A stretch of 36,986 nt of DNA from a virus, in the IMG/VR virus record IMGVR_UViG_3300045118_000751, positions 1 to 36,986 of that record. The stretch is one strand, 5' to 3'. Shown piece after piece: positions 11,593 to 27,738 of the stretch (its first letter is position 1; every line of letters starts with the position of its first letter). The notes under the pieces were generated by a model that did not search any database, was not told the origin of the DNA, and saw only the letters and a list, made by a program, of their open reading frames with translations. The position numbers and the translations under genes are program-made.

Positions 11593-11620
11593 CCTTAAAA
11601 CTTAAGGAGAATCTAATCTA

Positions 11621-12152
11621 ATGGCTAATCCTAATATGGGAACTTCTGTTATAGAGTTGAATACCATTAACTCTATAACTCTCCCGTTGATTAGTAAAAA
11701 GATAGCCGATAATATTACCACAAGGATTCCCCTTTTCTATTTTCTGAATAAAATCGGTCATAAGGAATACGAGAGCGGGGGTATTGAATACCGCTTGCCT
11801 ATTTTCAAGGAATTAGCCACTGGGCAGGCATATACCGGAAATACCGCACTCACTACTTCGGAAAAGGATTTAGTTTCTTCTGCCTGTTATGGCAGGAAGC
11901 AAATTACCCTGGATATAACCTTATCTGGGACTAAACTCCTGCAGAACTCCGGAAATGACCCAACCGCAGCAATTAACTATATTGCGGCGCAGATAGAGAT
12001 GGCGGAAGAATCAATGAAGGAAACTCTTGCTGGTAGTAGTGTTGGCGTATTATCAGACCAGGGAGATAGCGACCTTGGTATTACAGGGTTGCGCACCTTC
12101 CTAACTGATTCTACTACTACGGGAACAGTAGGCGGTCTTTCAAGAGCAACCT
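11621..12152 (+). CDS. Major capsid protein, exon 1
   Basis: Codes for residues 1-177 of the capsid subunit plus the first base of codon 178. N-terminus MANPNMGTSVIELN, a helix-rich stretch, and a glycine-rich loop (TGQAYTGNTALTT) fit an HK97-fold capsid protein; the last residues are GGLSRAT. SD AAGGAGAATC. The exon ends in T at 12152, in AGCAACCT, which pairs with an internal guide sequence at 12168-12175. Joined to exon 2 it reads GGLSRATYSYWRHKS, the continuous form expected of this protein class, and gives 333 residues overall. Without splicing the frame stops at 12242-12244 after 30 unrelated codons. Confidence 0.88.
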
Positions 12153-12797
12153 TAAAGAAAAAGAATAGGGCTGCTTTAACAATTTACTCTGATAAGGGGA
12201 AATGCTGGAATGCAGACCCCTCACAAGCATTGAGGTGTAACTAATGAAAGGTCGTAAGACTTGGGAAAGAGGATATGCAGCAGGATTGATTGATGGTGAA
12301 GGTTGTATATCTATCAAAAAAGTGAATAATTTTAATAAAAAAAGAAATCCTGAATATTCACTTCAAGTCAGTATGAATTTGTTAGATGCTGAACCTATTG
12401 ATTTTATGTATGGATGCTTTGGTGGAAGCATATATCACATAAAAGCAAGTGAATATGATAATCAACATAAAGATAATTGGAGATGGGAAATAAATAGGAA
12501 ATCAGCACAACAATTCTTAAAACAAATTCTACCTTTTTTAAGAATCAAGAAAAGTCAGGCAGAATTAGGGATTAGATTTGAAGATAATCGTGTATATCAA
12601 AAACACGAAAATAATCGTTATCTGCCATTTGATAAAGAAACTCTTGATAAATACGAATGGTTTTATAGAGAATGCCAAAGATTAAAAACCATTCATACCT
12701 CAAGTGCAGTGGTAACGACTAAGCGAGTAGAGCCGATAAAATCGGTAAGCGATAGTCTGGTCTTACAGGAAGAAGTAACTGTAAGTTAACAAAAACG
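12153..12797 (+). mobile_element. Group I intron in the major capsid gene, with ORF
   Basis: 645 bases. P1: exon end AGCAACCT (12145-12152) with guide GGGCTGCT (12168-12175), 7 of 8 pairs, with U-G at the splice site. P10: guide GAAT (12163-12166) with exon 2 ATTC (12798-12801). P3 TACTC (12185-12189)/GAGTA (12725-12729). P4 GGGG (12196-12199)/CCCC (12217-12220) with P5 TGC/GCA inside. P6 TTGAGGT (12230-12236)/ACCTCAA (12697-12703), with the endonuclease ORF in its loop. P7 GACTA (12717-12721)/TAGTC (12753-12757). P8 GCCGAT/ATCGGT (12732-12746). The terminal G is 12797. These are the hallmarks of a self-splicing group I intron. Confidence 0.88.
12244..12789 (+). CDS. LAGLIDADG homing endonuclease inside the intron
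   Basis: 181 residues with one LAGLIDADG motif, GYAAGLIDGEGCI (10-22), followed by the usual strand-rich core, so it probably acts as a homodimer. It would cut intronless alleles of the capsid gene to spread the intron. The ATG overlaps the stop of the unspliced capsid frame (TAATG), and GAGGTG, its SD, is part of intron stem P6, so folding should hide it. The coding region runs through the 3' core helices (P7, P8). More AT-rich than neighbouring virion genes, a sign of separate origin. Confidence 0.92.
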   Translation: MKGRKTWERGYAAGLIDGEGCISIKKVNNFNKKRNPEYSLQVSMNLLDAEPIDFMYGCFGGSIYHIKASEYDNQHKDNWRWEINRKSAQQFLKQILPFLRIKKSQAELGIRFEDNRVYQKHENNRYLPFDKETLDKYEWFYRECQRLKTIHTSSAVVTTKRVEPIKSVSDSLVLQEEVTVS

Positions 12798-13267
12798 ATT
12801 CCTATTGGCGGCATAAATCAGATTCCGTAACCACAGGGTTCGGGACTGATGGTTTAGCCAGTATGAGGCTTTTGCTTTTGAACGTCAGCCGTGGGGATGA
12901 GTCTCCCACCGTTGCAATTATGACTCTTACCGGATATAGTCTGTTATTGAAGGCTTTTACAGGGACACTTACATATAACACTCCTTCACCACAGACCAGA
13001 TTCGGCGATGTTGGTTTTGAAAACGTTAACTTCTTTGGCACTCCAGTTATTTATGATGATGGGATGCCTTCTTCAAGGGCCTACCTATTAAACCTGAAAT
13101 ATATGAAACTTCTGGTGCATAGGGATAGAGATATGTCCATCAGGGATTTCATTACGCCTACGAATGAAGACTCCATCACCGGCCGCATCTTTTGGGCAGG
13201 AAACTTGGTCTGCAACAACTTGGCTCGGCAGGGTATCCTGCAGGGCAACGTTGATACCGATAATTAA
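12798..13267 (+). CDS. Major capsid protein, exon 2
   Basis: Completes codon 178 (T+AT = Tyr) and codes for residues 178-333. Continues YSYWRHKSD, then a region with MRLLLLNVSRG, an open loop GFENVNFFGTPVIYDDG, and MKLLVHRDRDMSIRD, a typical beta-rich P-domain pattern ending in a short tail. Exon start 12798 follows the intron G at 12797 and pairs with the guide as P10. The usual ORF call starts later at an internal ATG (12863), which would lose the first 22 residues of the exon. Confidence 0.88.
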
Positions 13268-13280: not shown

Positions 13281-13802
13281 ATGAAAAAATTTAGTATTTT
13301 CATTCTATTTGCCCTATTAGTGCTTGGGTTTTCAGCGCAAGTTAGGGCAGAAATGAGCCCCTCGTCAGCCACAGGAACTTCCTATTTGGATAATCAAGTG
13401 CTTACTGTTGCTTATAACAACTCTGGTTCTGACATCACCTCAAAAAGCATAGTCATACTTGATACCTCGGCGACGGCGGGTTCTACTTTGGGTGCTTATA
13501 TCACTACTACCTCTACCGCAGATTCAAAAATGGTCATCGGTGTAATAGAAGACCCGACTTGCACCGCAGGGACTTCTTGCCGTGTTGCCATTAGAGGCCC
13601 GCACGCTGTCTGGTTCACCAGAACAGGCGCTGCCTCTTTAGCAGAAGGGGATTTAGTTTCAACCTCAACTACTGCTGGCAGGGCAACCGAATACTCTACA
13701 TCTGATGGGACTGCTGGTGGTATTTTAGGTAGGGCGCTCAAGGCATCGTCAACTGATGGTGATATTTGGTGGGTTTGGTTAGAGCCAAAAATCCATAAAT
13801 AG
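13281..13802 (+). CDS. Probable capsid decoration protein with Sec-like signal peptide
   Basis: 173 residues right after the capsid gene. The body (about 24-173) is Gly/Thr/Ser-rich and beta-rich, with a pattern of gVIxDxT, VAIRGPHAVW, SLAEGDLV, GGILGRAL and WWVWLEP that resembles phage capsid decoration/head-fibre proteins. GGGAGG precedes the ATG at 13281. Unexpectedly the first 23 residues are a textbook Sec signal: KK, a hydrophobic core FSIFILFALLVLGFS, and an AxA-like VRA site. Decoration proteins normally stay in the cytoplasm. A secreted protein with a decoration-like fold is the alternative. Confidence 0.65.
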   Translation: MKKFSIFILFALLVLGFSAQVRAEMSPSSATGTSYLDNQVLTVAYNNSGSDITSKSIVILDTSATAGSTLGAYITTTSTADSKMVIGVIEDPTCTAGTSCRVAIRGPHAVWFTRTGAASLAEGDLVSTSTTAGRATEYSTSDGTAGGILGRALKASSTDGDIWWVWLEPKIHK

Positions 13803-13817
13803 TCAGCATCTGGCTTT

Positions 13818-13845
13818 GGCGGTGAGCCATAATCACCGCCTTTCT
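13818..13845 (+). terminator. Hairpin after the decoration gene
   Basis: GGCGGTGA (13818-13825) pairs perfectly with TCACCGCC (13833-13840), followed by TTTCT. The TTG/GTG candidate starts of the next gene lie inside the stem. Likely a partial terminator or attenuator that lowers expression of the membrane protein downstream. Confidence 0.6.
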
Positions 13846-13848
13846 AAT

Positions 13849-14973
13849 ATGACTGCTTTTTTTAATATTTGTTTATTGATAATACCCTGGGTAGTCTTTC
13901 CTAATAAGGCTTTATCCGACCAATTCCGCCTGCCTAAATCAACCTTCTTTGACATAATCTGTATGGGGTTAATCTGTTATTCTTTTGCAACGGGGCTGCG
14001 CAGGAGGTATTTCAATAAATATTTCTCCTGGCTGTTAATCTGGGTCTTTGCAGTAATCATTATCAATTTCTATATTCCCTTCTCGCTTAACTTTATAAAA
14101 TCGGGCAAGGCGCTTAATATCTGGACTTTGGAGCCGATGTTGCATATTATCTTTGCGGTCTGGGCTTCTTATATTGCGCTTTCCTATTTTGAGCAGGATG
14201 ATTTTGTCAAGATAGCCAGGACACTGTGTTTTTCGGCAGTGGCAGTATCGGTAATAGCCAGCCTGCAGTATTTCGGCTGGGATATGTTCGGTAAAAAGGT
14301 AATATTTTATGATGAGGGGGTAAGGTTCTCTGCCTGCCTGGATAACTCCAATATCGCAGGCGCCTATTTAGCCTTATGCCTTCCTTTTTTCCTTATATTC
14401 AAAGAACACAAATACAAATTGGGGTTTATTCTGGTATTGGCGGGGGTATTTATCTCGCAGTCAATTATGGCGAAAGTATGCGCCTTATTGGGATTAGCGG
14501 TTTATTTTCTTTTAAACCTAAAAAATAGAAAAATACTTATTGCTGCTCTTGGCACAGGCATAGGCGCAGTTTTAATCCTGCTTTTTAACTTAAAATTATT
14601 CATAGGGGATTTTGCAGGACGCCTTGAGGTATGGGCTATGACTCTGCAGAAATTCAAGGAGAATGTCATTTTCGGGCAGGGCATAGGGATTTTTAAGACT
14701 TGGAATATATTGCATCTGGGGTATTGGGGAAATGCCCATAATGACTGGCTGGAAAGGCTGGTGGAGTTAGGTCTTATCGGGATTATCCTGATGGTTTTGG
14801 TGGTGATAAACAGCATCAGGAAATTCAATTATAAAAAAGATAATATCGTGGGGTTTTCCTATTTTGCTTCCTTTGTGTCGTTTTTGGTGCTGATGGGCGG
14901 GTCATTTCCTTTTGAGATAGCCCCGCTTGCGCTTCTGGGTTTAATCGGATTTTGGGGAACGGAAGTTTTATAA
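13849..14973 (+). CDS. O-antigen ligase/polymerase-like (Wzy_C) membrane protein
   Basis: 375 residues from ATG 13849; earlier TTG (13816) and GTG (13822) starts lie within the hairpin at 13818-13845. Around ten or more hydrophobic spans, with a large loop carrying GQGIGIFKT and then NAHNDWLERLVELGLIG, the characteristic Wzy_C region of O-antigen ligases and polymerases. Such enzymes join or polymerise lipopolysaccharide O-units in the inner membrane, periplasmic side. In a phage this would alter the host surface, for instance to change serotype or block superinfection (inference). Flanked by virion genes on the same strand. Substrate and direction of activity cannot be read. Confidence 0.8.
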   Translation: MTAFFNICLLIIPWVVFPNKALSDQFRLPKSTFFDIICMGLICYSFATGLRRRYFNKYFSWLLIWVFAVIIINFYIPFSLNFIKSGKALNIWTLEPMLHIIFAVWASYIALSYFEQDDFVKIARTLCFSAVAVSVIASLQYFGWDMFGKKVIFYDEGVRFSACLDNSNIAGAYLALCLPFFLIFKEHKYKLGFILVLAGVFISQSIMAKVCALLGLAVYFLLNLKNRKILIAALGTGIGAVLILLFNLKLFIGDFAGRLEVWAMTLQKFKENVIFGQGIGIFKTWNILHLGYWGNAHNDWLERLVELGLIGIILMVLVVINSIRKFNYKKDNIVGFSYFASFVSFLVLMGGSFPFEIAPLALLGLIGFWGTEVL

Positions 14974-14985
14974 CAAGGAGAAGAA

Positions 14986-15831
14986 ATGAACAAAGAAAAA
15001 GACGCAGTATTGGAAATTCCAGAAAAACAACAAGACCAGTTCCTTTATGTAGAGGCGGTAAAAAATCTGGTGGAGCAGAAAAAGGCGGAGTTTCAAGTCT
15101 TGCAGGGTAAAATCGGCCAGTATAAGACCCAGTTAATCTCTCTGGAGAGAAGAATTGCCAGCCTTGAGTCGGAACATAAGGAAAAAATGCTCCAGGAAAG
15201 GCAGAATTTTGAGAAAGAAAAGACCGCAAAGTTTACCGATATGGATAACCGCTTTGACGCCTTGCAGAAGGCAGAGTCGGATTATAGGCAGAGGAAGATT
15301 GACCTGGATGAAAGGGAATTAGAAAACGCCAAGATAAAGGACGAAAGGAAAAAACTCCTGGATGAAAAAATAAGGTATGAAAAATTAAATACCGAGGCGC
15401 AGGAGAAGTCCAATAAGGCTGATACCTTGATTGAGGAGGCGAATAAAAAACTTGAGATGGCCGCTGGCAAGGAACTTTCAGCAAAATTGAAACTTGATGA
15501 GATAGCCAATATTAAGTCAATAGTGGACTTAAGCGAGGCCGCCATCAGAGAGCATAAAAAGGAAGTCGCAAATCAGATTAACAACTTGCAGGATTTACGG
15601 AAAGAAGTCCAGCCTAAAATAGAAGAATACCATAATCTAATCAAGCAGAATGAAGCGCAGTTAAAGGAAATACAGCAGAAAGACCTTGATGTCAAGGCAA
15701 AGATAGAAGAGAACAATAAATTATTTGAGGCTATCCTTAAGAAAGAAGAAAACAATAAGCAGAAAGAAATCTTCCTGGCGACCAAAGAAGAGGAACTTCT
15801 GCGCAAGGAATTGCTTTTAAAGAAAGAATGA
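14986..15831 (+). CDS. Long coiled-coil protein
   Basis: 281 residues, almost wholly heptad coiled coil (QGKIGQYKTQLISLERRIASL, then ERQNFEKEKTAKF, EELLRKELLLKKE), very rich in Glu/Lys/Gln. Any single-chain role such as tail spacer, scaffold or tether would fit; no tape-measure-type hydrophobic segment is present. AAGGAGAAG precedes the ATG, and the last bases overlap the next start (ATGA). No named family. Confidence 0.75.
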   Translation: MNKEKDAVLEIPEKQQDQFLYVEAVKNLVEQKKAEFQVLQGKIGQYKTQLISLERRIASLESEHKEKMLQERQNFEKEKTAKFTDMDNRFDALQKAESDYRQRKIDLDERELENAKIKDERKKLLDEKIRYEKLNTEAQEKSNKADTLIEEANKKLEMAAGKELSAKLKLDEIANIKSIVDLSEAAIREHKKEVANQINNLQDLRKEVQPKIEEYHNLIKQNEAQLKEIQQKDLDVKAKIEENNKLFEAILKKEENNKQKEIFLATKEEELLRKELLLKKE

Positions 15832-16163
15832 GCATAAAGCATTTTACGGGAAATGAGTATTTAAGGAAGGATGACGGAACCTTGATTATCGGGATGATGT
15901 TAAGGTCATCTATCAGGCAGGGAACCGTTACGATTGCTACCTCTGCCACTAAAATACCGACATCCCCGTTATCCGAGAGGCTATCTATTGTGATAGTGAA
16001 TATCTCAAACAATATAGTTTATCTGGGCAATAGTTCTGTTACTACGGCTAACGGTTATCCGATATACCCGAGGCAGTCAATTTCTTTTTATATTGAGGAC
16101 AACATAGATATTTACGGGATAGCGGAAAGTTCGTCAGAGTGCAGAATTTTAGAGGGAGGATAA
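15828..16163 (+). CDS. Small beta-rich phage virion protein
   Basis: 111 residues starting in the previous stop (ATGA). Pattern TVTIATSATKIPTSPLSER, LSIVIVNISNNIVYLGNSSV, GYPIYPRQSISF, IDIYGIAESS matches small beta-sandwich proteins common in tailed-phage structural blocks, usually called hypothetical or head-fibre-like. Located between coiled-coil and adaptor genes. Likely a minor virion protein; exact role unknown. Confidence 0.7.
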   Translation: MSIKHFTGNEYLRKDDGTLIIGMMLRSSIRQGTVTIATSATKIPTSPLSERLSIVIVNISNNIVYLGNSSVTTANGYPIYPRQSISFYIEDNIDIYGIAESSSECRILEGG

Positions 16164-16168
16164 ATCTT

Positions 16169-17290
16169 ATGACCCGCTTGGAATTGGCTACTGATATAGA
16201 AAATATCTCAAATGTAAAAGACCAGAGGGTTTTAGTCAACCGCTCTATCCAGCACGCTTTGGAGAGGGTATTTGAACACCACGACTGGCCTTATTATATT
16301 CAGGATAAAGGCGTGATAGAAACTGTCGCCACTTATACTACGGGGACAGTCAGCGTTACCAATGGTTCGCCCAACCTTACTTTTTCCGGTTCTACCCTTA
16401 CCTCTGGGATGGCAGGAAGAAAAATCAGGATAGAAAGCCAGAACGAATATTACAGGATAAAATCCGTGGACACAGGCGCAGGGACGGCAGTTCTGGAAAA
16501 TAACTATTGCGGGACTACGGGCAGTTCTAAAACATTCACGATTTTTAAGGATGAATACCGCCTGGCCGCAGATGTGGATAAATACAAAATCCTGCGCCAG
16601 ATTAAAAACGGGATTATTCTTTTTGATACCCACCCTACAAATTACGACCAGTCCTTCCCCGTTCCCAATTCTTACTCTGACCCGATACGCAGCGTAATGA
16701 TAGGGACTAAACTTGATACTTATACTACGGGGTCTTTATCTGGCTCTGGGACTACGCTTACCGGTTCAAGCACTGCCTGGACATCGGTAGAGGGGTTAGG
16801 CAGGATGTCTAAAATACGTATTGGGAATAATGTCTATACCGTAAAATCGGTGGATAGCGCCACGCAGATAACTACCTTTGAAACTATCACCACGGTATCA
16901 TCAGGGACTACTTACGAGATTACCTTGAATAATCTGGTGGTGCAACTCTATAATATTCCTAATACTGCGCAGTTGCTTTATTACCGTTATTTCCGTATCC
17001 CTTCCATTTTAGCCAATGATTATGACATTCCTGATATGCCGCATAACTGGCATTGGCTTTTAATGTATGGCGCATTATCGGTTGTTTTAATGCAGAAGGG
17101 CGATATAAATAAGGCGCAGATAGAGGCGGAAACAAGGTTTATGAACGGCTTGGATATGATGAAAATTAAAATAGGGTCTTTCTCACCGGACAGGATTTAT
17201 AAGAGGAAGTCCGTTGACAGGATGACGGGAGTATTATTAGATGGCCTGGAAAGCAGTGATTTTGACCGCAGGTATTCTTTCCCTGCTTAA
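16169..17290 (+). CDS. Head-tail adaptor-like protein with inserted beta domains
   Basis: 373 residues. ATG at 16169 is preferred because GAGGGAGGATAA stands 6-12 bases before it. N-terminal helices (LELATDIENISNVKDQRVLVNRSI, LERVFEHHDWPYY) and a C-terminal helical region with W-H-W (MPHNWHWLLMYGALSVVLM, KAQIEAETRFMNGLDMM) resemble podovirus head-tail connector/tubular-A-like adaptors. The middle has two related Thr/Ser/Gly-rich beta inserts (VTNGSPNLTFSGSTL, SGSGTTLTGSSTAWTSV). Connects portal and tail. Overlaps the next gene by 50 bases. Call by architecture and position. Confidence 0.7.
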   Translation: MTRLELATDIENISNVKDQRVLVNRSIQHALERVFEHHDWPYYIQDKGVIETVATYTTGTVSVTNGSPNLTFSGSTLTSGMAGRKIRIESQNEYYRIKSVDTGAGTAVLENNYCGTTGSSKTFTIFKDEYRLAADVDKYKILRQIKNGIILFDTHPTNYDQSFPVPNSYSDPIRSVMIGTKLDTYTTGSLSGSGTTLTGSSTAWTSVEGLGRMSKIRIGNNVYTVKSVDSATQITTFETITTVSSGTTYEITLNNLVVQLYNIPNTAQLLYYRYFRIPSILANDYDIPDMPHNWHWLLMYGALSVVLMQKGDINKAQIEAETRFMNGLDMMKIKIGSFSPDRIYKRKSVDRMTGVLLDGLESSDFDRRYSFPA

Positions 17291-18860
17291 CAACTGTTAT
17301 GCCGAAGTTCCCTGGGTAAAGGCAATTTATTTTCAGAACTGGGGCGGACTTAATGACCAGTTATCCCAGAGTGAAATACAGGATAACGAAGCCACGGATA
17401 TTCAGAACATTATTTTTGATACCGGCGGAGCATTGGTCAAGAGGTATGGCTTTGACCCTGTTCCAAGCGATACTGTCCAAAAAGCCGCTACCGGCTCGGT
17501 AGTCGCTATTACTGGACTTTCCTTTTACCATAAGAATAACGGCAATAAATTTGTAGTAGCTATTGCCAATAACGATAATAAGGCGGTGGCCATGAAGAAG
17601 AACTGGGACAGCGGCCCTGCTTCAGGGGCCTGGAACAATATAGACTTTGCCGCCCTGCCTTCCAGTTATTCCAATAATTACCTGGCTGATTTTGCCGTAG
17701 CCGAGGATAACCTTATCATCACTATCCCCTCTACCACAGGGCATAAGCCTTTTAAATGGCCAGGAAGCGGTTTTGTAACCTATCTTACCTCTGACAGCGA
17801 TTGCCCTACGGCAAGCCTGGTGGAATACCATAAGAACCATCTTTTCTTATCAGGGAACCCTACCTACCCTTCCAGGGTGTATTTTTCTGCGCTTGACAAT
17901 ATCAGCGATTTTACCGCTACGGACTTTTTTGATGTCCAGACCTCCGATGGCTCAAGGGTCAGAGGGATAATCTCCGCCTATGACAGCCTGTATATTTTTA
18001 AGGATAAATCTATCTGGAGGCTGTCTGGCTCGGAAAGAGATACCTTTGTCTTGCAGGAGATGGTCTATGACATTGGGACATTGTCGCAACAGTCAATCTG
18101 CATAGTGAATAATATCATCTATTTTACCACCCCAGAAGGAAAAAAAGCGGTATATGACGGTGCTTATACGGTGAAGTTTGCCTCCGATAAGATTGACAAT
18201 ACCATAAATACCAAGATAAGTTCATCCCGCTCTGCCTATGCTTTAGGGATAAATTTTGAGGATAATTTCTACGGTTCGGTCAGCGGAAGCGGGTCAGGCA
18301 CAAATAATCTGGTTTTACTCTTTGATACTACTTACAATGCTTGGACTAAATTCAACGGCATAAATGCCAATGCCTGGTGCGTGGCAGAGGATAGCACAGA
18401 GGGGGAGATTTTAGTCTTTGGGGATTATAGCGGGTATGTGGACAGTTATCCTTCTTCCAACTATTATGACGGTAATGCTACTACGGGGCCGATTTCAGCC
18501 TTTTACCAGACTAAATGGTTCAGGTATAGCGATTTGGCATTGGGGGATAAATACTGGCGGTTGCTTAAAACTTATGCCTTGTCAGAGACTATCGGCGATG
18601 CCGTGCTTTATGCTGAATGCCGTTCCGATTATGAGACCAGCGGAAGGGTGGTAGAGATAGATTTATCGGAGTCAGGGGCAAAATGGGATACGGCTTTATG
18701 GGATGTAGATTTATGGTCAGGGCAGTCTTTGATAGTAGGCAGAAATGAAATAGAAAAAGGGAAAAGTATGTTCCAGATTAAATACTACAACGACTCCGCC
18801 AATCAGGGCTTTACCATCTTCGGCTGGGAGATATTTATTGAGCCTACGAATAGAATATGA
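17241..18860 (+). CDS. Tail/stabilisation-like beta-propeller protein with signal-peptide-like N-terminus
   Basis: 539 residues. A conserved tail motif block stands near the N-terminus: NWGGLNDQLSQSEIQDNEA followed by DIQNIIFDTGGALVKRYGF, as in phage tail stabilisation proteins. Repeated blades with aromatic/Gly motifs follow (VAEDNLIITIPS, LVEYHKNHLFLSG, GIISAYDSLYIFKDKSIW, NNIIYFTTPEGKKAVY). The first ~21 residues (AVILTAGILSLL, then CYA/E) look like a Sec signal. The ATG at 17241 overlaps the preceding gene; GGGAG lies 9-14 bases upstream. The propeller/tail call is good by motif; the exported N-terminus is unexplained. Confidence 0.75.
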   Translation: MAWKAVILTAGILSLLNNCYAEVPWVKAIYFQNWGGLNDQLSQSEIQDNEATDIQNIIFDTGGALVKRYGFDPVPSDTVQKAATGSVVAITGLSFYHKNNGNKFVVAIANNDNKAVAMKKNWDSGPASGAWNNIDFAALPSSYSNNYLADFAVAEDNLIITIPSTTGHKPFKWPGSGFVTYLTSDSDCPTASLVEYHKNHLFLSGNPTYPSRVYFSALDNISDFTATDFFDVQTSDGSRVRGIISAYDSLYIFKDKSIWRLSGSERDTFVLQEMVYDIGTLSQQSICIVNNIIYFTTPEGKKAVYDGAYTVKFASDKIDNTINTKISSSRSAYALGINFEDNFYGSVSGSGSGTNNLVLLFDTTYNAWTKFNGINANAWCVAEDSTEGEILVFGDYSGYVDSYPSSNYYDGNATTGPISAFYQTKWFRYSDLALGDKYWRLLKTYALSETIGDAVLYAECRSDYETSGRVVEIDLSESGAKWDTALWDVDLWSGQSLIVGRNEIEKGKSMFQIKYYNDSANQGFTIFGWEIFIEPTNRI

Positions 18861-19825
18861 GAAAGATTATCAGTAATTTTATCTCTTTATCAGTCAGCTT
18901 GGCGGTAATCTTAATCCCCTTATTCTTGATTGCCGAAATATCCGCTCCGCCTAAAGACGATAATCTCTCTATCCAAAGTCAGCAGTATTTTAAGGATATT
19001 TACGAAAATCTGAAAAATATCTCCAGCAATTTTTCTTTTCTTACCTTAAGCGATACCCCTAACAGTTATTCGGGGCAGGCGAATAAGACCGTCAAAGTCA
19101 ATTCTGGAGAGACCGCCCTGGAGTTTATAAATGTTACCTCAACCGATGAAAAAGTAAAGGCGGATTCCGCAGACAGCACAGCGGATTATTTAGCCAATAA
19201 AACAGACAATACTACCGTAGCGGTAAATACCACCAGCCATCAATTATACGTTATCCACGGTTCTTCCGCTTATAACTCTGGCTCTGGAAGTTGGACGGCT
19301 CCTACGGGGATTTCTAAAATATTCATAACGTTATGCGGCGGAGGCGGCGGCGGAGCAAACGGCAACGGCAGCGCAGGCGGCGGAGGTGGCGGCGGAGCAG
19401 AGGCTATAGTTAATTTTCTTTATAATGTAACCGCAGGCAGCAGTTATGCCTATTCCGTAGGCGCAGGCGGGGGGACAGGAGCAACTGGAAGTGATACCAC
19501 ATTTGGCACAGGGACGGTGATTACTGCCAACGGTGGCGGTGCTGGCGTAGCAGGTTCAGCCGGTTCTGGTGCCTCTAATACCATAAATGCTTCGGGCTCA
19601 ACAGCAGGAGGCTACGGAAGCCTCTCCGGCGGTAATGGCGCTACCAGTGGTATGAATGGTGGTGGTGGCGGCGGTTCCTATTTTGGGGCAGGCGGAGCAG
19701 GTCAGCCTTCCGAAAATGGCAATGGCACTGCAGCTACAGGATATGGCGCAGGCGGCGGCGGTGCGGGTAAAAGCGGCGGGACTGGCGGAGCAGGTTCAGG
19801 CGGAGTTGTTTTAGTGGTATATTAA
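18857..19825 (+). CDS. Glycine-rich tail fibre-like protein with hydrophobic N-terminus
   Basis: 322 residues starting in the previous stop (ATGA). Signal or anchor-like N-terminus (SLSVSLAVILIPLFLIAEISA), a helical linker (QQYFKDIYENLKNISSNF), a typical fibre segment (TLSDTPNSYSGQANKTVKVNSGE), then a C-terminal domain of extreme Gly content (CGGGGGGANG, GGAGVAGSAGSGAS, GAGGGGAGKSGGTGG). Glycine-rich receptor-binding tips of this kind occur at the ends of phage fibres. Poly-Gly runs suggest a beta-like sandwich. The export-type start is odd for a virion protein. Confidence 0.7.
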   Translation: MRKIISNFISLSVSLAVILIPLFLIAEISAPPKDDNLSIQSQQYFKDIYENLKNISSNFSFLTLSDTPNSYSGQANKTVKVNSGETALEFINVTSTDEKVKADSADSTADYLANKTDNTTVAVNTTSHQLYVIHGSSAYNSGSGSWTAPTGISKIFITLCGGGGGGANGNGSAGGGGGGGAEAIVNFLYNVTAGSSYAYSVGAGGGTGATGSDTTFGTGTVITANGGGAGVAGSAGSGASNTINASGSTAGGYGSLSGGNGATSGMNGGGGGGSYFGAGGAGQPSENGNGTAATGYGAGGGGAGKSGGTGGAGSGGVVLVVY

Positions 19826-19837
19826 AGGAGGATTTTT

Positions 19838-20512
19838 ATGAAAAGAATATTTTTAGTCATCGGTTTTATTCTTTACTCGGTTATTTTGTGTTTTTCAGCC
19901 CCGAATAACAGCATCAGTATTCCGACCAGTTTTTCTCCGCAGACTACTATTTCTTCCTCGGAGACCAATGCCAACAACAACGAAGTCGCCACTAAATATA
20001 ATGTCCATACCCATACTGATATTACCTCGTTAGGGACGATTACCACCGGCACCTGGCAGGGGACAACAGTCGCTAAAGGCTATGGCGGGACTGGTAATGC
20101 CTATGGTCTGGGGCTTCCTTCTGGGGCGGTATTTTTTATGGTCAGCGGGACTTGCCCTTCTGGAACTACGAATGTTTCCTCAACCTATTCCAATAAATTT
20201 GTCAGGATAAATGCTACGGCTGGCTCAACTAGCGGCGCAGATACCCATACTCATACGGCAGGGACTTTTGCTGGCCCAAGCCATACCCACGGCGTTCCCG
20301 TAGGGTATTCTACAGAGAATATTTATCTTGCAAATCAGACCTCCGGCACCTTTACCGCTGCCTGGTCAACTGGCGCAGGCGGGGCATCCAGTCAGGGCGG
20401 GGTAAATAAGACGCTTTCTGACGCAGGCGGGACAGGCACGGTAACAGGGACATCGGCGTCAGGGGATAATGTCCCTGCTTACGTAACGATGATTGCATGT
20501 AGCGTTGATTAA
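19838..20512 (+). CDS. Tail collar-like / fibre protein with signal-like N-terminus
   Basis: 224 residues. After a signal-like start (RIFLVIGFILYSVILCFSA/P) comes a fibre-type segment (TSLGTITTGTWQGTTVAKG, YGGTGNAYGLGLPSG) and a C-terminal collar-like domain with paired His motifs TSGADTHTHTAG and GPSHTHGVPV, as in phage tail collar proteins. Ends near CSVD. AAAGGAGG precedes the ATG. Stop overlaps the stop of the HNH gene on the other strand. Confidence 0.8.
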   Translation: MKRIFLVIGFILYSVILCFSAPNNSISIPTSFSPQTTISSSETNANNNEVATKYNVHTHTDITSLGTITTGTWQGTTVAKGYGGTGNAYGLGLPSGAVFFMVSGTCPSGTTNVSSTYSNKFVRINATAGSTSGADTHTHTAGTFAGPSHTHGVPVGYSTENIYLANQTSGTFTAAWSTGAGGASSQGGVNKTLSDAGGTGTVTGTSASGDNVPAYVTMIACSVD

Positions 20513-20982
20513 TAATTTAATCTATGAAATCTAATATGTTCATTATTATTAGGAAAAAGTTTTAAATTTTCAATTCTATCATCAGAAGGATTACGATTTA
20601 TATGATGTACAACTTCTTCAGATTTAAGATACCTGCCAATATGTTTTTCTATTACAAGATGACTTTGTTTAATATAACCATTAATATCACAAGAAGGATG
20701 AGATTTATTAAGGACAATTATGTATCCGTGATAATTTTTATGTTTTCCACCTTTCCAATTACCATTATTAGAACCTTGATTTTTACCTGGTTTTCCCATA
20801 AGACTATGATTAAAACATTTCCGAGAGCAAAATTTTCTTTGGTTTATTCTACATTTAATAACATAAAACAATTTTTTGCATTGTTGACATTTATTATATC
20901 TACCATTTTTTCTTGGGCTTGGTCGTCCTTTGTTACAATAACCAATTGGTTTTCCATTATCTTTTCTATATCCTTTAGGCAT
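20509..20982 (-). CDS. Free-standing HNH homing endonuclease on the opposite strand
   Basis: 157 residues. N-terminal four-cysteine module (CQQC, FCSRKC) then an HNH core, VVHHINRNPSDDRIENLKLF with NNNEHIRFH, plus a GxYIKQSHLVIEKHIGRYL helix typical of NUMOD-type phage HNH enzymes. It is the only minus-strand gene in the 4-31 kb plus arm. Its own promoter and structured leader sit directly upstream (21003-21124), so it forms a self-contained unit between the collar gene and the next virion genes. Stops of the two convergent genes overlap. Likely a DNA cutter that spreads by homing; target not visible. Confidence 0.9.
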   Translation of the reverse strand: MPKGYRKDNGKPIGYCNKGRPSPRKNGRYNKCQQCKKLFYVIKCRINQRKFCSRKCFNHSLMGKPGKNQGSNNGNWKGGKHKNYHGYIIVLNKSHPSCDINGYIKQSHLVIEKHIGRYLKSEEVVHHINRNPSDDRIENLKLFPNNNEHIRFHRLNY

Positions 20983-21002
20983 ATTTTCTTTTTAATTAAA
21001 AA

Positions 21003-21090
21003 GCCCGTTTTCGGTGGCTTGAAAGAAACGGTTAAATTTCTACACCTACTAACGGGCAAGTTAGATACAAAAAATCCGTTTCTTGCAAGC
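21003..21090 (-). ncRNA. Pseudoknotted leader RNA of the HNH gene
   Basis: Helix A: 21076-21090 with 21017-21031 (14 of 15 pairs). Helix B: 21051-21057 with 21003-21009, GCCCGTT/AACGGGC (7 pairs). Order on the RNA is A, B, A', B', an H-type pseudoknot, and the last strand is followed by TTTTT. The promoter at 21097-21124 should start the transcript at about 21090, the first base of helix A. The HNH ATG follows 20 bases after the T-run starts. Likely attenuates HNH transcription or translation; the leader architecture resembles the two leaders at 1558 and 2367. Confidence 0.65.
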
Positions 21091-21096
21091 AATTTT

Positions 21097-21124
21097 AGTC
21101 TAACATAAAATTTGAATTTGTCAA
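21097..21124 (-). promoter_or_regulatory. Promoter of the HNH gene
   Basis: Minus strand: -35 TTGACA (21124-21119), 16-base spacer with a TGT extension, -10 TAGACT (21102-21097). Explains how a gene opposite to all its neighbours is transcribed. Confidence 0.65.
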
Positions 21125-21131
21125 TATTAAT

Positions 21132-21239
21132 ATGGATGATTTATTGCAATATTTAACCCCAAAAGTTAATCAAAATATCCGAGAGGCAATAGCCGATAAT
21201 AGGTTGATTAGTGGAAAATTTTTTATTAAACCTCATTGA
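21132..21239 (+). CDS. Tiny ORF after the HNH unit
   Basis: 35 residues (MDDLLQYLTPKVNQNIREAI...). Polar, helix-like, with no family. No SD remains upstream, where the HNH unit begins; its 3' end overlaps the next gene. It may be a real minor gene or a leftover of one disrupted by the HNH insertion. Confidence 0.4.
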   Translation: MDDLLQYLTPKVNQNIREAIADNRLISGKFFIKPH

Positions 21240-21531
21240 AGAGGATATTGATTTAAAATCAGATGACAGGGAAAAAATCAGGCTTTCTTTACAAGAGGCT
21301 GTTCAAACTGATACTCTACGCTTTATTTATCGGGATAATATCCCTGTTGGTTTTTATAGTTGGAAGGTTTATTCAAAGGGTATCTTTATAAACAACCTTT
21401 TTATCTTAAAGGGATACAGGAATAGGGATAACTTGCTGTATTTAAGAAACTGGTTCAGGGAGAAAATGGTTAATGGAAAGTTCTACTGGAAAAACAGAAA
21501 AACAAAACAATATACGCCGTTATACAGTTAG
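21211..21531 (+). CDS. Hypothetical protein, possibly GNAT-like
   Basis: 106 residues from GTG at 21211, with ATAGG upstream. Beta-alpha pattern: LRFIYRDNIPVGFYSW, KGIFINNLFILKGYRNRDNL, LRNWFREKM. The segment INNLFILKGYRNRDNL recalls the acetyl-CoA-binding strand and loop of GNAT proteins (R-x-x-G/D), but the rest is too short and diverged for a firm call. The 5' end overlaps the 35-residue ORF. Followed by internal virion proteins. Confidence 0.55.
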   Translation: MENFLLNLIEEDIDLKSDDREKIRLSLQEAVQTDTLRFIYRDNIPVGFYSWKVYSKGIFINNLFILKGYRNRDNLLYLRNWFREKMVNGKFYWKNRKTKQYTPLYS

Positions 21532-21539
21532 GAGGGAAA

Positions 21540-22394
21540 ATGCTTAAAAACTTATGGCGACATTTTTTAAAGGTAATAAAAAGCGAGAGAGGGGATTTTG
21601 GCGGGGATGACCAGGAAGAAGCCGAGCAGGGGATTACCCAGGCTGGAGAAGAACTTTATAAACGGGGTAAATTACAACTTGGGGAAGAAGTCCAATATCC
21701 AAGTAGTTTTGAGTTAGGGAAATTAGCAGAGGCGATAATTAAATCAAGGATGGGTTTAGGAGAAGCCCCTGCTGGGTATCTTACTCCTACACAGCAATAT
21801 TTGGAAGGTGCTGGCGATATAGGGGCTAATTTGTATAATCAGATTTTGACAGAGATAAAAGACCCTTATGCCTATTATGAAAGCATTTTACAACCCCAAC
21901 TGCAATTAGCAGAGGATTATATCAATAGAGGAGCGCAGAGGCGGGGATTATTAAGAAGCGGCATACCCATTGAGCAGATGGGCAGGGCTGGGGTAGAATT
22001 AGCCATACAAGAGGCTAATGCCAGGCAGCAAGCCAGGGCAAATGCCCTCTCAAGGGCAGGAACGCTTACGGAATATATGCAAGGGGGAGCAGGGCAAAAT
22101 CTGGCTAATCTGGCTAATCTCTATGGGCAACAGCAACAATATGGGTTAACGGCTATGGGCAGGCAGGCAGGCCAGGCGCAGGCAGCAGCGCAATATCAGG
22201 CTTATCCTTATCAATATCAATTAGGTCAATCTGGGGGAAGTTATGGCGGATTAGGGACTGCTTTAGGAATGTTAGGGGCTGCTGGATTATCAGCCATAAC
22301 TAAAGGGCCAGGAATTTATGGAATGGGATTACCTATGTCTCTACTGCTTGGCGGCGTTGCAGGTGGTGGTTTAGGAAGTTCATTTAATAGATAA
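21540..22394 (+). CDS. Internal virion / ejection-like protein
   Basis: 284 residues: N-terminal charged helices, a Gln/Ala-rich central part (GAQRRGLLRSGIPIEQ, QEANARQQARANALSRAGT, LANLYGQQQQYGLTAMGRQAG), and a hydrophobic Gly-rich end (LGMLGAAGLSAITKG, MSLLLGGVAGGGLG). This mix of Gln-rich helices and membrane-active C-terminus is common in podovirus internal (ejected) proteins that line the injection channel. AGGAGGG precedes the ATG. Named by composition and neighbourhood. Confidence 0.6.
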   Translation: MLKNLWRHFLKVIKSERGDFGGDDQEEAEQGITQAGEELYKRGKLQLGEEVQYPSSFELGKLAEAIIKSRMGLGEAPAGYLTPTQQYLEGAGDIGANLYNQILTEIKDPYAYYESILQPQLQLAEDYINRGAQRRGLLRSGIPIEQMGRAGVELAIQEANARQQARANALSRAGTLTEYMQGGAGQNLANLANLYGQQQQYGLTAMGRQAGQAQAAAQYQAYPYQYQLGQSGGSYGGLGTALGMLGAAGLSAITKGPGIYGMGLPMSLLLGGVAGGGLGSSFNR

Positions 22395-22404
22395 GGAGGT
22401 TATT

Positions 22405-23310
22405 ATGGCTTTGGGAGACCCATTAGCATTAGGTATTGAGGCACGCAGGCGTAGAGAAGAAGCATTTAATCCTTTATTAAATGTTTTAGGGATATTGGTT
22501 CAACAAGAGCAAAAAAAAGAATTACTTGAAGGGGAACAGAAGGCAAAAGAGAGATTGTTGGAAAAGGAAGAGCAGGCAAAAGAGAGATTGCAGGAAAAGG
22601 AATTTACATTAAAAAAAGAATACGAGGAAGAAAACCTTACAAAGAAGCAAAGATTTATTTCTGATATATTGAAAAATGCTGGTTTGAATACGCAAACTGA
22701 AAACAGGATAGAAAATAAATCCGATATTGGTTTGACTGGTTTTACACTTGACCCTACCACAGGGGATTTAAGAATTTCTTTTGGACAAACTCCAGAAGCA
22801 AAAATAAAAGAACAGTCTCAACTTGCAGCGGCAAAAGAAAGGGAAACTACAATCTCTAAAGCGGAAAGATTAGAAGCAGTAGGCAATAGAGTAAAACAAG
22901 AATGGATTAAAACATCTCCTTACAAGGGGTTAATAACAAAAGCAGGACTTGTTCCAGCATTAGGGGCTTGGGATATTTTAAAGAAAGGGCTCCAGGCTAC
23001 TTCTGCCCAAAGAGCAGATTTGGCTTATGCTGATTTTGTTCAAGGTATCAGGGCACAGTTGGCAAGAGGTATGGGAGATGTGGGTAATTTATCGGAGTAT
23101 GAACAAAAGGCTGTTATAAGGTTAATCCCTAAACTTACAGATAGTTATGAGACTGGTTTATTAAAAATGCAACAATTATCTGGATTGGTAGATGATATAA
23201 GGCAGACACGTAAAATAAATAAGGATATCAATCAAGGTATAGTTTCCAAAATACCGATTACTCCTGAACAAGCAAGGGCAGAACTTCAAAGGCGCAAGAG
23301 TAAACAATAA
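22405..23310 (+). CDS. Coiled-coil internal virion-like protein
   Basis: 301 residues. First 70 residues are a strong coiled coil (QKAKERLLEKEEQAKERLQ, EFTLKKEYEEENL), followed by a globular half with SAQRADLAYADFVQGIRAQLARGMGD and LSEYEQKAVIRLIPK, a pattern seen in internal virion proteins. AAGGAGG SD; A/T-rich codons compared with the upstream virion genes. Role inferred from position between two other internal-protein candidates. Confidence 0.6.
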   Translation: MALGDPLALGIEARRRREEAFNPLLNVLGILVQQEQKKELLEGEQKAKERLLEKEEQAKERLQEKEFTLKKEYEEENLTKKQRFISDILKNAGLNTQTENRIENKSDIGLTGFTLDPTTGDLRISFGQTPEAKIKEQSQLAAAKERETTISKAERLEAVGNRVKQEWIKTSPYKGLITKAGLVPALGAWDILKKGLQATSAQRADLAYADFVQGIRAQLARGMGDVGNLSEYEQKAVIRLIPKLTDSYETGLLKMQQLSGLVDDIRQTRKINKDINQGIVSKIPITPEQARAELQRRKSKQ

Positions 23311-23354
23311 AGGCAATAATAAATAATCTCCATAGTGATTAAAAGGAGTTTAAA

Positions 23355-24461
23355 ATGCCAGATTTAAGCCAATATACGGATAAAGAATTAGAGAGTATAG
23401 CAAATCAGCCAGATTTATCTTCCTTTACCGACGATGAATTGATAAAAATTGCTGGAGAAGAACTGCCAAAACTACCGACTTTAACGCAAAACTTGGCAAG
23501 TATTGGGATAGGAGCAGGAACTGCTTTGGGTGCAGGTTTTGGTATAGCCAAAGGGTATAAGGCATCTGCAATCGGAAGGAATAAATTAGCGGGAGACTTG
23601 ATAAATTCTATTATTAAGCCACGCCATAGAGAGTTTTCATTTGGGAAAAACCCAGGTCAAGGTATTGCCCAAGAGGGAATATGGGGGTTAAACATTAATA
23701 GTATAGGCAATAAGGTTAATAAAAGATTAGATGAACTTAATTCTTATGTAAAAGGGATTTATTCTCTTCCTGAAAATCAGATTAAAGCGATAAACCTTGA
23801 GCAGATGTTAGACCCATTTTACGATGCTTTAGATAAATTATCAAAGGCCCCAGAGACACATCAGGCAAAAATAAATGAAATATACGGGATAGTCAAGGAT
23901 TTAGAGGGGAATATCCCTAAAGGAATAAATATAAAGGAGGTTCCACTTAAAACTGCTTATGGGATTAAAAAGGTAGTAGAAGGAATGCAGAAGTGGAATG
24001 TTGAAAGCACAGGAGACCAAATCATAAACTCAAGCCTCAAACAGGCTTATCATAACATAGATAACGCTATTGATACGGTAATGCCAGAATTGAAGCCTGC
24101 TAATTCAAGAATTGCTAATCTCATCAGTGCAAAACAGGCAATAAAAAATAGAATTGAGGTATTGAGTAGGCACGAACCTGATATTCTTGATTTAGCAAAT
24201 CTTCCCATTAAGGGAACAGTGGGAAGCACGGGTTTTAAGTCTGGGTTGGCTAAAATTCTTTCGGAAAAATTTGGGTTGATAGGAAAGGGAGTAAAAAAAT
24301 CTGTCGGGCTTTTATCTGTTTTTCCAACCATATTTAATGCTTATAATTGGTCAAAAGACCCTGAACCATACGAGAAGGCTACCTATGAGACTTTAACAGG
24401 ACAAGAGTTGTCTCCTCCTGGCTCATTAGAGCGGGAAATTGAGTTGGGCAGGGTTATTTAG
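23355..24461 (+). CDS. Internal virion-like protein with DkELexIA repeat
   Basis: 368 residues. N-terminal double motif LSQYTDKELESIA and LSSFTDDELIKIAG, a repeated short helix seen at the start of many podovirus internal proteins. A Gly-rich hydrophobic stretch (IGIGAGTALGAGFGIAKG, near 50-67) could act on membranes, followed by a helical body. AAAAGGAG precedes the ATG. Probably injected with DNA during infection (inference). Confidence 0.6.
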   Translation: MPDLSQYTDKELESIANQPDLSSFTDDELIKIAGEELPKLPTLTQNLASIGIGAGTALGAGFGIAKGYKASAIGRNKLAGDLINSIIKPRHREFSFGKNPGQGIAQEGIWGLNINSIGNKVNKRLDELNSYVKGIYSLPENQIKAINLEQMLDPFYDALDKLSKAPETHQAKINEIYGIVKDLEGNIPKGINIKEVPLKTAYGIKKVVEGMQKWNVESTGDQIINSSLKQAYHNIDNAIDTVMPELKPANSRIANLISAKQAIKNRIEVLSRHEPDILDLANLPIKGTVGSTGFKSGLAKILSEKFGLIGKGVKKSVGLLSVFPTIFNAYNWSKDPEPYEKATYETLTGQELSPPGSLEREIELGRVI

Positions 24462-24487
24462 TATGGATTTTTGATAAGGGGGGATTT

Positions 24488-24574
24488 ATGGTTAATATTT
24501 GGACAAGCAACCCGATACAAATTGACTCTAATATTAGTATTGCATTAGTGTTAGTCTATCTTGCGGCAACATAA
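24488..24574 (+). CDS. Tiny ORF coupled to the large fibre gene
   Basis: 28 residues (MVNIWTSNPIQIDSN..., ending in a hydrophobic IALVLVYLAAT). AGGGGGGATTT is a strong SD and its TAA overlaps the fibre ATG (TAATG), so it may serve mainly to deliver ribosomes to the long gene. Not a recognised protein. Confidence 0.45.
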   Translation: MVNIWTSNPIQIDSNISIALVLVYLAAT

Positions 24575-27500
24575 TGAAAAGATTGCTGTTAATCCTACTT
24601 TTAATCCCTGCCTTATGCTTTGCCCAAGAACCCAGCCCAGTCCCCCTTAATATTCAAGAACTGGATGGCAGTTTATCTGCTTATCCCTACCAGATTTTAG
24701 TCCCTAATAACGGCATAGAAGCGGTTACCGGCGGAATTGTAGAATTAAATTATGCGCCAGCCAGTTCACTGGGCTGGACAGATGATGGCACGGTAGTAAG
24801 ACTTACCACCTCTACCGATAGTGTTGGTGTCGGCACAAATTCTCCTCAAAGGTTATTTCATCTATACAGAGAAACAACCAGTAATACAGGCCTCTTTACT
24901 ATGGAGGTAGTGAATAATGATAATACTTCTGGCCCAACCAATAACTTCTGGAGAGCAAGAGGAACCACCGCTTCAAAAACTGTTCCTTCTTCAGGCGATA
25001 TCATAGGCGGCCTTAATTTTGATGCTTATGATGGGACTGACTATAATTCCGTAGCAAGCATAAAAGCAACATTAGACGGAGCAGGTGGAGTTGGAGATGT
25101 GCCAGGAAAGTTATCCTTTCTTACTACTCCTGATGGCACTGCAACGGCTGTTACAAGAATGACCATCGGTAACGATGGCTCTATCATAATCAATGATGCC
25201 GGAGTATCCACTGCCGATGTCAGGATGGAAGGGGATACCGACGCTAACCTTTTCTTCCTTGATGCGAGTTCTGATGCTGTTTTGATAGGAACCAGCACTC
25301 CTACTTCAGGGACTAAGTTTAATGTCTATCAGGACGCAGGTAGCGGGACTACCGAACTTGGCAGTTTTAATCTTGTAAATTCTTCCACGCTTTCAGGAAC
25401 GACAAATATGGTGCCTTTAGAAAGCACGGTAGAATGGACAGGCGATAAGAATAATAGGACAATAAATGTTTACGGCTTTTATGGGTCAGCGACTGCATCA
25501 TCTAACCTTAATTCTTTAACTGGCTGTCAGTATTTAGCCAGTTTAAGCAGCGGAACGGCAACCCAGGCAAGGTCGCTTAATCCTATACTTACAGTTTCTG
25601 GGACAGTAACAACTGCAGATACCATTTTTGGTTCTGCCATAAATACAGGAACTATTACAACATTTTACGGGGACAGGATGCAGTTACTTAATAACGGGAC
25701 TATTACGACTGCTTATGGTTATTATGCTGATTTTGCAGGAGCTAATGACCCTACAACCACCTATGGATTCTATGGGAATATAGCGAAAGGGACAACGAAG
25801 TGGGGGCTTTACTTAACAGGCGATGTTTATAATTCTTTAGGCGGCGGGTTAATAGTAAATGAAGATGGGAACGACAGCGATACAAGATTTGAAGGCGACA
25901 CTAACGCAAACCTTGTTTATTTAGACGCCGGTAATGACAGGGTCGGTATAGGAAAAAATAATCCCGCAACAATATTAGATGTCAACGGAACAGGCACTTT
26001 TAGTCAGATAATTGACTCGGGTCTTACTGCTTCAAAAGTAGTCTTTACTGATAATTCGCAACAACTTACATCAACCGGCATAGGGGCATCATCACAATTT
26101 ATTAAAGGCGATGGTTCTCTTGATAGTTCTACTTATCTTACTGCCGAATCTGATACGCTTAATACGGTATGTGGTAGGGGGGCATCATATACCGCAGGGA
26201 ATGTAACACTTCTTGGAGTTACTATAGGTGCTAATACCCTTGATACTTCCGAATGGGCATATCTTGATGGTCAGAACCAGACGGTAGCTACTACTTCAAG
26301 TCCTACCTTCGCCAATCTTGTAATTACATCGGGCGGCGATATTAAACCCTCCGCTAATTCCACCACCGCCATCAATATAGCTCAAGCGGACGGGACTAAC
26401 TTCGTTACATTTGATTCTACCAATAAAAGAATCGGCCTGAATGTAACGCCAACTGTGCCGCTTGATATGACTTCAACGGTAAATCAACTTGTAAGGTTCG
26501 TCAGCACGGCGGCAAGCAGTTCAACTTCGGGGTCTGGTGTGAATTGTTATAGCAACGATGGTGCGGCGATGGCAAGTGGGGATAGGCTTGGATGGTTAAT
26601 ATTGGGCGGTGCCTCGGACGCTTCTGGAACATTAGTCAATCCTGTCGCCATCAACGGCTATGCGGCTGAAAACTTTAGCTCGACAAATCAGGGCGGACAT
26701 TTGGTCTTTGCGACAACTCCCATCGGAAGCACAACAGCTTCAAGGGCGGAAAGATTAAGAGTATTGGATAGTGGTCGGATAGGCATAATGACGACTGCTC
26801 CCGACAGAGAAACGGAGATAAATGATTCAAGCGGGAACTGTTTAAGGCTCACTTATAACGATTCTAACGGCAGTGCCACATATTATACTGACTTTTTAGT
26901 CAGTTCGGCGGGACTTTTATCTTTAAATGCTGTCGGTGGCGTAAGAATAAACGATACAGGGGCAGATGCCGATACGGTAATAGAAGGGGATACAAATACA
27001 TCTCTTTTTTATGTGGATGCGGGTAATGACAGGGTTGGTATAGGGACTACTGCCCCTGATAAGAGTTTAGAAGTCAACTCTGCTACGGGCGGATGTTTAA
27101 GGCTTACCTATAACGACTCAAATGGCTCGGCTACCACTAAAACTGACCTTGATGTTGATTCTACCGGTCAATTAACAATTACCTCGCCCACAGGAAAAAC
27201 GCCTTACATAAGCCCAGTTGTGTATGATGATTTACAATTTAATATAGCCGCTGGAAAAGTCCCAGGGGCTAATTTTCCTACCTGGGAAACATTTACTACC
27301 AATACCAGTGCCTATGCTTTTAGCGTAAACGATTATATAGACTGTGGTGCTAATGAACTTCCTCATTGGTGGTCTCAAGGGACGGCAGGGGACGCACACT
27401 TGCATTTTACTATTAAAACTGCGCAAAGCACAGGCGCAAATAGATACGCTAAATTTACCGTGGTCTTTGCTTATGCCGATACGAATGAGGCTTGGGTTGA

Positions 27501-27738
27501 GTCCACATTAACTGCCGAATACACTATACCGACAGGAACCGCTGCCTTGACTAACCTATACCTTGATTTAGGCAATTTGACATTTACAGACTATCTTGTT
27601 GGGGCGCAGATAAGATGCCGCATAACAAGAATAGCCGCAACCGGCGGAACAGAATATGCTGACGATGTTTATATTACTCAATGCGGCGTGCATTTGCAGA
27701 AAGACTCTTTAGGCTCAAGGACAGAAACAGTTAAATAA
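24574..27738 (+). CDS. Large tail fibre/spike-like protein with signal peptide
   Basis: 1054 residues, the largest product. A signal-like N-terminus (MKRLLLILLLIPALCFA/Q) precedes a repetitive beta-rich shaft with three copies of EGDTnxNLfylDAgnDrVgIG-type units (about residues 218, 439 and 803) and two CLRLTYNDSNGSAT units. The C-terminus has a jelly-roll-like tip (TWETFTTNTSAYAF, AHLHFTIKTAQSTGAN, LYLDLGNLTFTDYLVG). Probably the main receptor-binding fibre. Translation is coupled to a 28-residue ORF by TAATG. An exported fibre is unexpected and shared with four other virion genes here. Confidence 0.7.
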   Translation: MKRLLLILLLIPALCFAQEPSPVPLNIQELDGSLSAYPYQILVPNNGIEAVTGGIVELNYAPASSLGWTDDGTVVRLTTSTDSVGVGTNSPQRLFHLYRETTSNTGLFTMEVVNNDNTSGPTNNFWRARGTTASKTVPSSGDIIGGLNFDAYDGTDYNSVASIKATLDGAGGVGDVPGKLSFLTTPDGTATAVTRMTIGNDGSIIINDAGVSTADVRMEGDTDANLFFLDASSDAVLIGTSTPTSGTKFNVYQDAGSGTTELGSFNLVNSSTLSGTTNMVPLESTVEWTGDKNNRTINVYGFYGSATASSNLNSLTGCQYLASLSSGTATQARSLNPILTVSGTVTTADTIFGSAINTGTITTFYGDRMQLLNNGTITTAYGYYADFAGANDPTTTYGFYGNIAKGTTKWGLYLTGDVYNSLGGGLIVNEDGNDSDTRFEGDTNANLVYLDAGNDRVGIGKNNPATILDVNGTGTFSQIIDSGLTASKVVFTDNSQQLTSTGIGASSQFIKGDGSLDSSTYLTAESDTLNTVCGRGASYTAGNVTLLGVTIGANTLDTSEWAYLDGQNQTVATTSSPTFANLVITSGGDIKPSANSTTAINIAQADGTNFVTFDSTNKRIGLNVTPTVPLDMTSTVNQLVRFVSTAASSSTSGSGVNCYSNDGAAMASGDRLGWLILGGASDASGTLVNPVAINGYAAENFSSTNQGGHLVFATTPIGSTTASRAERLRVLDSGRIGIMTTAPDRETEINDSSGNCLRLTYNDSNGSATYYTDFLVSSAGLLSLNAVGGVRINDTGADADTVIEGDTNTSLFYVDAGNDRVGIGTTAPDKSLEVNSATGGCLRLTYNDSNGSATTKTDLDVDSTGQLTITSPTGKTPYISPVVYDDLQFNIAAGKVPGANFPTWETFTTNTSAYAFSVNDYIDCGANELPHWWSQGTAGDAHLHFTIKTAQSTGANRYAKFTVVFAYADTNEAWVESTLTAEYTIPTGTAALTNLYLDLGNLTFTDYLVGAQIRCRITRIAATGGTEYADDVYITQCGVHLQKDSLGSRTETVK

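Follow-up and report, generated by a model that had tools for sequence, protein, structure and literature searches.

The late region of the virus record IMGVR_UViG_3300045118_000751 (36,986 bases, analyzed over its whole length and referred to here as the window) is podovirus-like, and five of its predicted virion proteins begin with segments resembling Sec-type signal peptides (SPs). To our knowledge, tailed-phage assembly is taken as wholly cytoplasmic; why should a decoration protein, a tail nozzle, and three fibres of such a phage carry export signals? A first-pass annotation had reported the five segments and held that so many in one operon could not be due to chance. That observation is right, and larger than was claimed: it is borne out by systematic scoring, and the SPs are kept in related lineages. 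Two features that the annotation did not point out stand beside it. The exported set is the expected outer surface of the virion, the SP-less set being the head core, connector, and internal proteins; and a gene of the Wzy_C family adjoins the decoration gene. Sequence comparison indicates that export of the SP-bearing proteins is very probably real and suggests assembly in two compartments, to which we assign a probability of about one half, higher than that of any single rival. The label "virion protein" rests here on homology, position, and domain matches.

Signal peptides in the window and its relatives

SPs were called with a purpose-written, rule-based scorer applied equally to all open reading frames (ORFs); its rules are a positive n-region, an uncharged core of 9–16 residues with a mean hydropathy of at least 1.9, and a small-x-small site. 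All five ORFs lie where the first-pass annotation had placed them, and these features are present in 5/5 of their products. The predicted cut falls between MKKFSIFILFALLVLGFSAQVRA and Glu in the product of the ORF starting at 13281, between MAWKAVILTAGILSLLNNCYA and Glu in the 17241 product, between MRKIISNFISLSVSLAVILIPLFLIA and Glu in the 18857 product, between MKRIFLVIGFILYSVILCFS and Ala in the 19838 product, and between MKRLLLILLLIPALCFA and Gln in the 24574 product. The 17241 product is the weakest of the five, with a single Lys and a score of 11.2. No canonical lipoprotein lipobox (L-[AS]-[GA]-C) was found at the core end of the five window SPs; some have a Cys near the cut (e.g., ALCFA, NNCYA) without the lipobox motif. 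Disulphide formation was rejected as a motive for export, Cys counts in the exported proteins being low and Cys positions not conserved; a Ser/Thr-rich composition is frequent among the exported parts.

Clade lineages were found by nozzle and capsid scans of viral contigs (L002–L004, L005/L025, L006, L007, L023, and L026–L028; L002–L004 are near-identical contigs, and L005/L025 is one contig). Two further loci are deeply diverged: L030, whose capsid is 28% identical to the clade capsid, and L050, reached via its Wzy_C protein, whose nozzle shows 23–27% identity and whose capsid has no detectable relationship. Counting plus-strand ORFs of at least 80 amino acids, with the start chosen freely within 60 residues and a threshold score of at least 11, SP-like starts occur in 33/148 ORFs of the clade late regions versus 0/358 in 21 outgroup phage loci (Fisher p = 1.5e-19), and in 8/46 ORFs of the two deeply diverged loci. 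Because ORFs within the clade are homologous, this p value overstates independence, and more weight is given to the safer lineage counts: the decoration SP is present in 7/7 lineages and the nozzle SP in 6/6. In the comparison of N-termini in related phages, which the first-pass annotation had proposed as a check, SPs were kept within the clade and lacking on outgroup nozzles. Some Wzy_C proteins also score as SP-like, their first membrane helices resembling an SP; an internal-start call of 8.2 in the L023 terminase, under the threshold, was taken as noise; and L119 (295–3768) has an SP-like start yet no family match, and was not counted as a relative.

Tail nozzle and decoration protein

The tail nozzle (propeller-like; 17241–18860, plus strand) has a profile match to Mx8-type nozzles; its SP is coded by 17241–17303, with a predicted cut after Ala21. 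Homology of the clade nozzles to the podovirus nozzle (phage stabilization protein) family is full-length, and their alignment with SP-less Mx8-type nozzles (hhalign probability 99.8, E 2.7e-29, 484 columns) begins near the predicted cut. Within the clade, Ala at −1 is invariant among the nozzle SPs, and an SP-less mature start at a Met of its own was not found. Beyond it, among 51 further loci (many near-identical), an SP was present on 0/44 nozzles readable to their start, the other seven lacking a complete ORF; outgroup nozzles read directly, those of cultured phages included, likewise showed none. The SP-less L050 nozzle begins MIPFQTKRYYFS, as compared with EVPWVKAIYFQN in the window, almost exactly at the SP cut point. 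Judged from these alignments, the SP is a clade-specific extension added to the ancestral N-terminus of the nozzle. The nozzle of MW202803.1 (L012, 8685–10241) is annotated from 8853; homologous sequence reaches upstream to at least 8685.

The decoration (cement-like) protein (13281–13802, plus strand) has its SP coded by 13281–13349, with a predicted cut after Ala23. Its match to PF09956 (Phage_cement_2) is weak (E 1.8e-4, 22.3 bits, below the curated cut-off of 24), and three homologues gave no match; its position after the capsid gene fits the assignment. Homology to Mx8 p49 was undetectable, a PDB sequence search returned no matches, and AlphaFold models were poor (mean predicted local distance difference test of 47.8 for the decoration protein and 49.7 for Wzy_C), and the fold search gave nothing informative. 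In every lineage, the ATG that opens the decoration SP has a Shine-Dalgarno-like sequence upstream of it. Ala at −1 and Glu at +1 are invariant among the decoration SPs. Identity within the SP is only about 33–35% in the decoration and nozzle families, both of which keep the −1 Ala; since cut-site residues are fixed while the rest of the SP drifts, what selection preserves seems to be a working, cleavable SP and not its particular sequence.

Start misassignment, or a dual internal start, was rejected on several grounds: the Shine-Dalgarno sequence of the decoration gene lies at the SP start, nozzle starts overlap the adaptor stop codon in several lineages, and no conserved internal start with a convincing Shine-Dalgarno sequence was found downstream of the SP. 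Together with conservation across lineages, these observations dispose of the host-type start mis-assignment that had been offered earlier as one possible meaning.

Fibres

The three remaining SP-bearing products of the window are fibres, all encoded on the plus strand. The Gly-rich small fibre (18857–19825; PF21722 and phrog_863 tail fibre) has its SP coded by about 18857–18934, and small SP-bearing proteins occupy the same gene position in L002, L005, L006, L007, and L027. For the collar-like fibre (19838–20512; SP coded by 19838–19897), SP-bearing homologues are present in L002 and L007, and SP-bearing fibres lie at a similar position in L005, L006, L027, L030, and L050. The giant fibre (24574–27738; phrog_9942 tail fibre, E 1.2e-18) has its SP coded by 24574–24624; its homologue in L004 also has an SP, and large SP-bearing fibres occur in L005 and L006. 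An HNH endonuclease gene (PF13392; 20509–20982, minus strand) lies between the fibre genes of the window, and a stand-alone response-regulator receiver domain (PF00072; 27993–28427) is encoded just downstream of the giant fibre. In L007, an ORF after the fibre genes (14902–16050) has a Hint/intein-like splicing domain.

Proteins without signal peptides

The late-region gene order is terminase (phrog_2), portal-like, scaffold-like, capsid (phrog_9953) split by an inserted ORF, decoration, Wzy_C membrane protein, coiled coil, adaptor (SU10_adaptor), nozzle, two small fibres, a small GNAT-like gene, three ejection-like genes, and giant fibre. No SP was found in the clade on the terminase, portal, scaffold, capsid, coiled coil, small gene before the adaptor, adaptor, GNAT-like, or ejection-like genes. 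In the window, this SP-less, cytoplasmic set comprises the genes from terminase through capsid (5839–13267, plus strand), the head-tail adaptor (16139–17290, plus strand; PF24175 SU10_adaptor, E 1.4e-6; SP-less in six clade lineages), and the three ejection-like proteins (21540–24461, plus strand), whose function is assigned from gene order only.

About 650 bases containing a LAGLIDADG endonuclease ORF (PF00961; 12150–12800) interrupt the capsid gene. This insert had no Rfam match, and is likely an intron because the capsid halves on either side correspond to the two ends of phrog_9953. A LAGLIDADG-like ORF also lies beside the capsid gene of L050. Elsewhere in the window, a 557-amino-acid protein (31558–33231, minus strand) has a long run of degenerate "DNIxxNI"-type repeats followed by a DUF6745 domain; at the contig end (36342–36710, minus strand), the C-terminal part of a DnaB-type helicase follows an intein splicing-domain remnant (PF03796, PF14890).

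A Wzy_C gene beside the decoration gene

A membrane protein of the Wzy_C family (O-antigen ligase/oligosaccharyltransferase superfamily) is encoded at 13816–14973 on the plus strand (PF04932 E 1.2e-13, 51.6 bits versus a cut-off of 31.7). In five lineages (the window, L002, L006, L025, and L027), its gene comes immediately after that of the SP-bearing decoration protein. In L030 and L050 likewise, the capsid region is followed by an SP gene and then by a Wzy_C-like gene, and an SP-bearing small fibre is encoded as well; here the PF04932 match falls below the curated cut-off (L030 E 0.019). An HNx9GxxG motif, which we take to be the conserved His motif of the superfamily, is present in 7/7 of these proteins. 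No match to the PglL-specific PglL_A domain (PF15864) was found up to E 0.1, and for this reason the protein was not filed as PglL, though it could work like one. L007 and L023 keep SPs without a Wzy_C gene, and a search of 50,697 phage records gave no Wzy_C homologue. A second Wzy_C-like gene lies downstream of the large fibre in L004 (16544–17647), with a weak match and without the HNx9GxxG motif.

Proposed assembly in two compartments and alternative explanations

A partition of assembly is suggested because the SP-bearing set matches the outer surface of the virion and the SP-less set its inner parts. Outer-surface proteins (decoration, nozzle, small fibres, and giant fibre) would be made as precursors with cleavable Sec/signal-peptidase-I SPs and be exported from the cytoplasm; the portal, scaffold, capsid, adaptor, and ejection proteins would stay inside with the DNA and give rise to DNA-filled heads. 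Once mature, the exterior parts would remain beyond the inner membrane, probably in the periplasm, until lysis opens the membrane and they can meet the heads. What this model infers is that the proteins are in fact exported and cut, that they enter virions, and when assembly takes place. Each contig examined has one decoration copy and one nozzle copy, and a working virion would therefore have to use the exported product. In L050, neither the nozzle nor the small protein beside it has an SP, whereas in the clade both do, a pairing expected of parts that must share a compartment to meet.

Several points weigh against assembly in two compartments. In L030 and L050, SPs are present on the fibre and decoration-position proteins and absent from the nozzle, and the large fibre of L007 has no SP, so that the partition is not absolute. 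The model has no explanation for how heads without a nozzle would retain their DNA until lysis. A periplasm in the host is assumed; in the search for that host, a capsid scan of genome contigs gave no relative, a Wzy_C scan gave only 25–36% matches in assorted cellular contigs, and no tRNAs were found in nine loci scanned. SP prediction, finally, was rule-based.

Three of the explanations that can be set against two-compartment assembly would have the segments do something else, or nothing. The proteins could work outside the cell as secreted decoys or receptor blockers and not as virion parts; fibres can bind receptors, and lectin-like domains are present in those seen here. This proposal from the first-pass annotation is nonetheless improbable, leaving unexplained the SPs on the decoration protein and the nozzle. 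Both are virion parts by homology, decoys would not need them, and no additional copy lacking the SP was found for either in the contigs. It is similarly hard to favor uncleaved hydrophobic anchors, also on the earlier list, which would hold assembly at the membrane or enter a membrane during infection. Every segment could span a membrane once, but conserved small-x-Ala sites come right after the segment, SP-less homologues begin at the cut, and it is the cut site that is conserved while the hydrophobic core drifts. Attributing the segments to chance or misassigned starts is barely credible: the predictor is home-made and the window nozzle scores modestly, against which stand conservation across lineages, the outgroup rate of 0/358, and the Shine-Dalgarno sequence at the decoration SP start. 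Of the meanings listed earlier, membrane-linked assembly is the one that remains and fits best, in a membrane-linked or two-compartment form.

The other two explanations turn on the Wzy_C gene, and each is tentative. Export may serve modification: shell and fibre proteins would pass through the periplasm, where the phage Wzy_C protein, as an O-oligosaccharyltransferase, would add a host lipid-linked glycan, and the glycoproteins would dress the head at lysis. The glycan might provide disguise, stability, or adsorption, and such a scheme is compatible with two-compartment assembly. Periplasmic glycosylation of the shell is possible, if doubtful, because the Wzy_C gene adjoins the SP-bearing decoration gene across lineages; the motif shared by all seven proteins and the Ser/Thr-rich exported parts point the same way. 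The missing PF15864 match, the weak L030 match, and the lineages with SPs and no Wzy_C gene count against modification, and Wzy_C enzymes may act on lipopolysaccharide (LPS) instead. Alternatively, the Wzy_C gene may be an independent superinfection-exclusion or serotype-conversion gene altering the host surface polysaccharide, its place beside the decoration gene being incidental. O-antigen alteration is known from both lytic and temperate phages, and the absence of the gene from L007 and L023 is in keeping with such a role; what speaks against it is that the position after the SP gene is the same in L030 and L050 despite the divergence of their capsids. Published descriptions of the family lend something to both, as it takes in O-antigen ligases and polymerases, and PglL enzymes mostly adjoin their substrate genes, outside LPS loci (PMC3643930). 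The full combination, in which two-compartment morphogenesis is joined to an exterior processed in the periplasm, O-glycosylated by a phage-encoded oligosaccharyltransferase, and fitted only once the inner membrane opens, is unlikely as a whole.

Comparison with known systems

No report of SPs on tailed-phage virion proteins, or of two-compartment tailed-phage assembly, was found in the open-access literature. Absence of signal peptides has been cited as support for a phage origin of variable proteins (PMC6199706); annotation rules that take a signal peptide as the sign of a host gene may misread phages such as these. If the proposed partition is true, the inner membrane can divide virion assembly in two, and the virion becomes accessible to reactions of the periplasm, glycosylation among them.

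Mx8/Mx9-type and BUCT555-type podoviruses share with the clade a phrog_9953-like capsid (23–33% identity), a nozzle homologous over its full length, and a similar gene order, including the GNAT-like gene after the nozzle; they differ in that their decoration-position and nozzle proteins lack SPs, and in that phage records yielded no Wzy_C homologue. Filamentous phages such as M13 make their coat proteins with signal peptides, which likewise take virion proteins out of the cytoplasm before assembly. However, those coat proteins are lodged in the membrane and the particle leaves by extrusion, whereas the clade consists of tailed phages with head, portal, and terminase, whose mature parts are not predicted to remain in the membrane. 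As with PglL/PilO O-oligosaccharyltransferases (PMC3643930), the gene for a PF04932 enzyme adjoins that of an exported protein outside an LPS locus, although the PglL_A domain was not found here and the putative substrate is a phage shell protein. In mycobacteriophages, phage-encoded glycosyltransferases are suggested to glycosylate the capsid (PMC11256854), so that a glycan is likewise proposed on the outer virion surface through a phage-encoded enzyme. The enzyme type described there is different; in the present clade, the putative enzyme belongs to a family of membrane proteins facing the periplasm, and its proposed substrates are SP-bearing.

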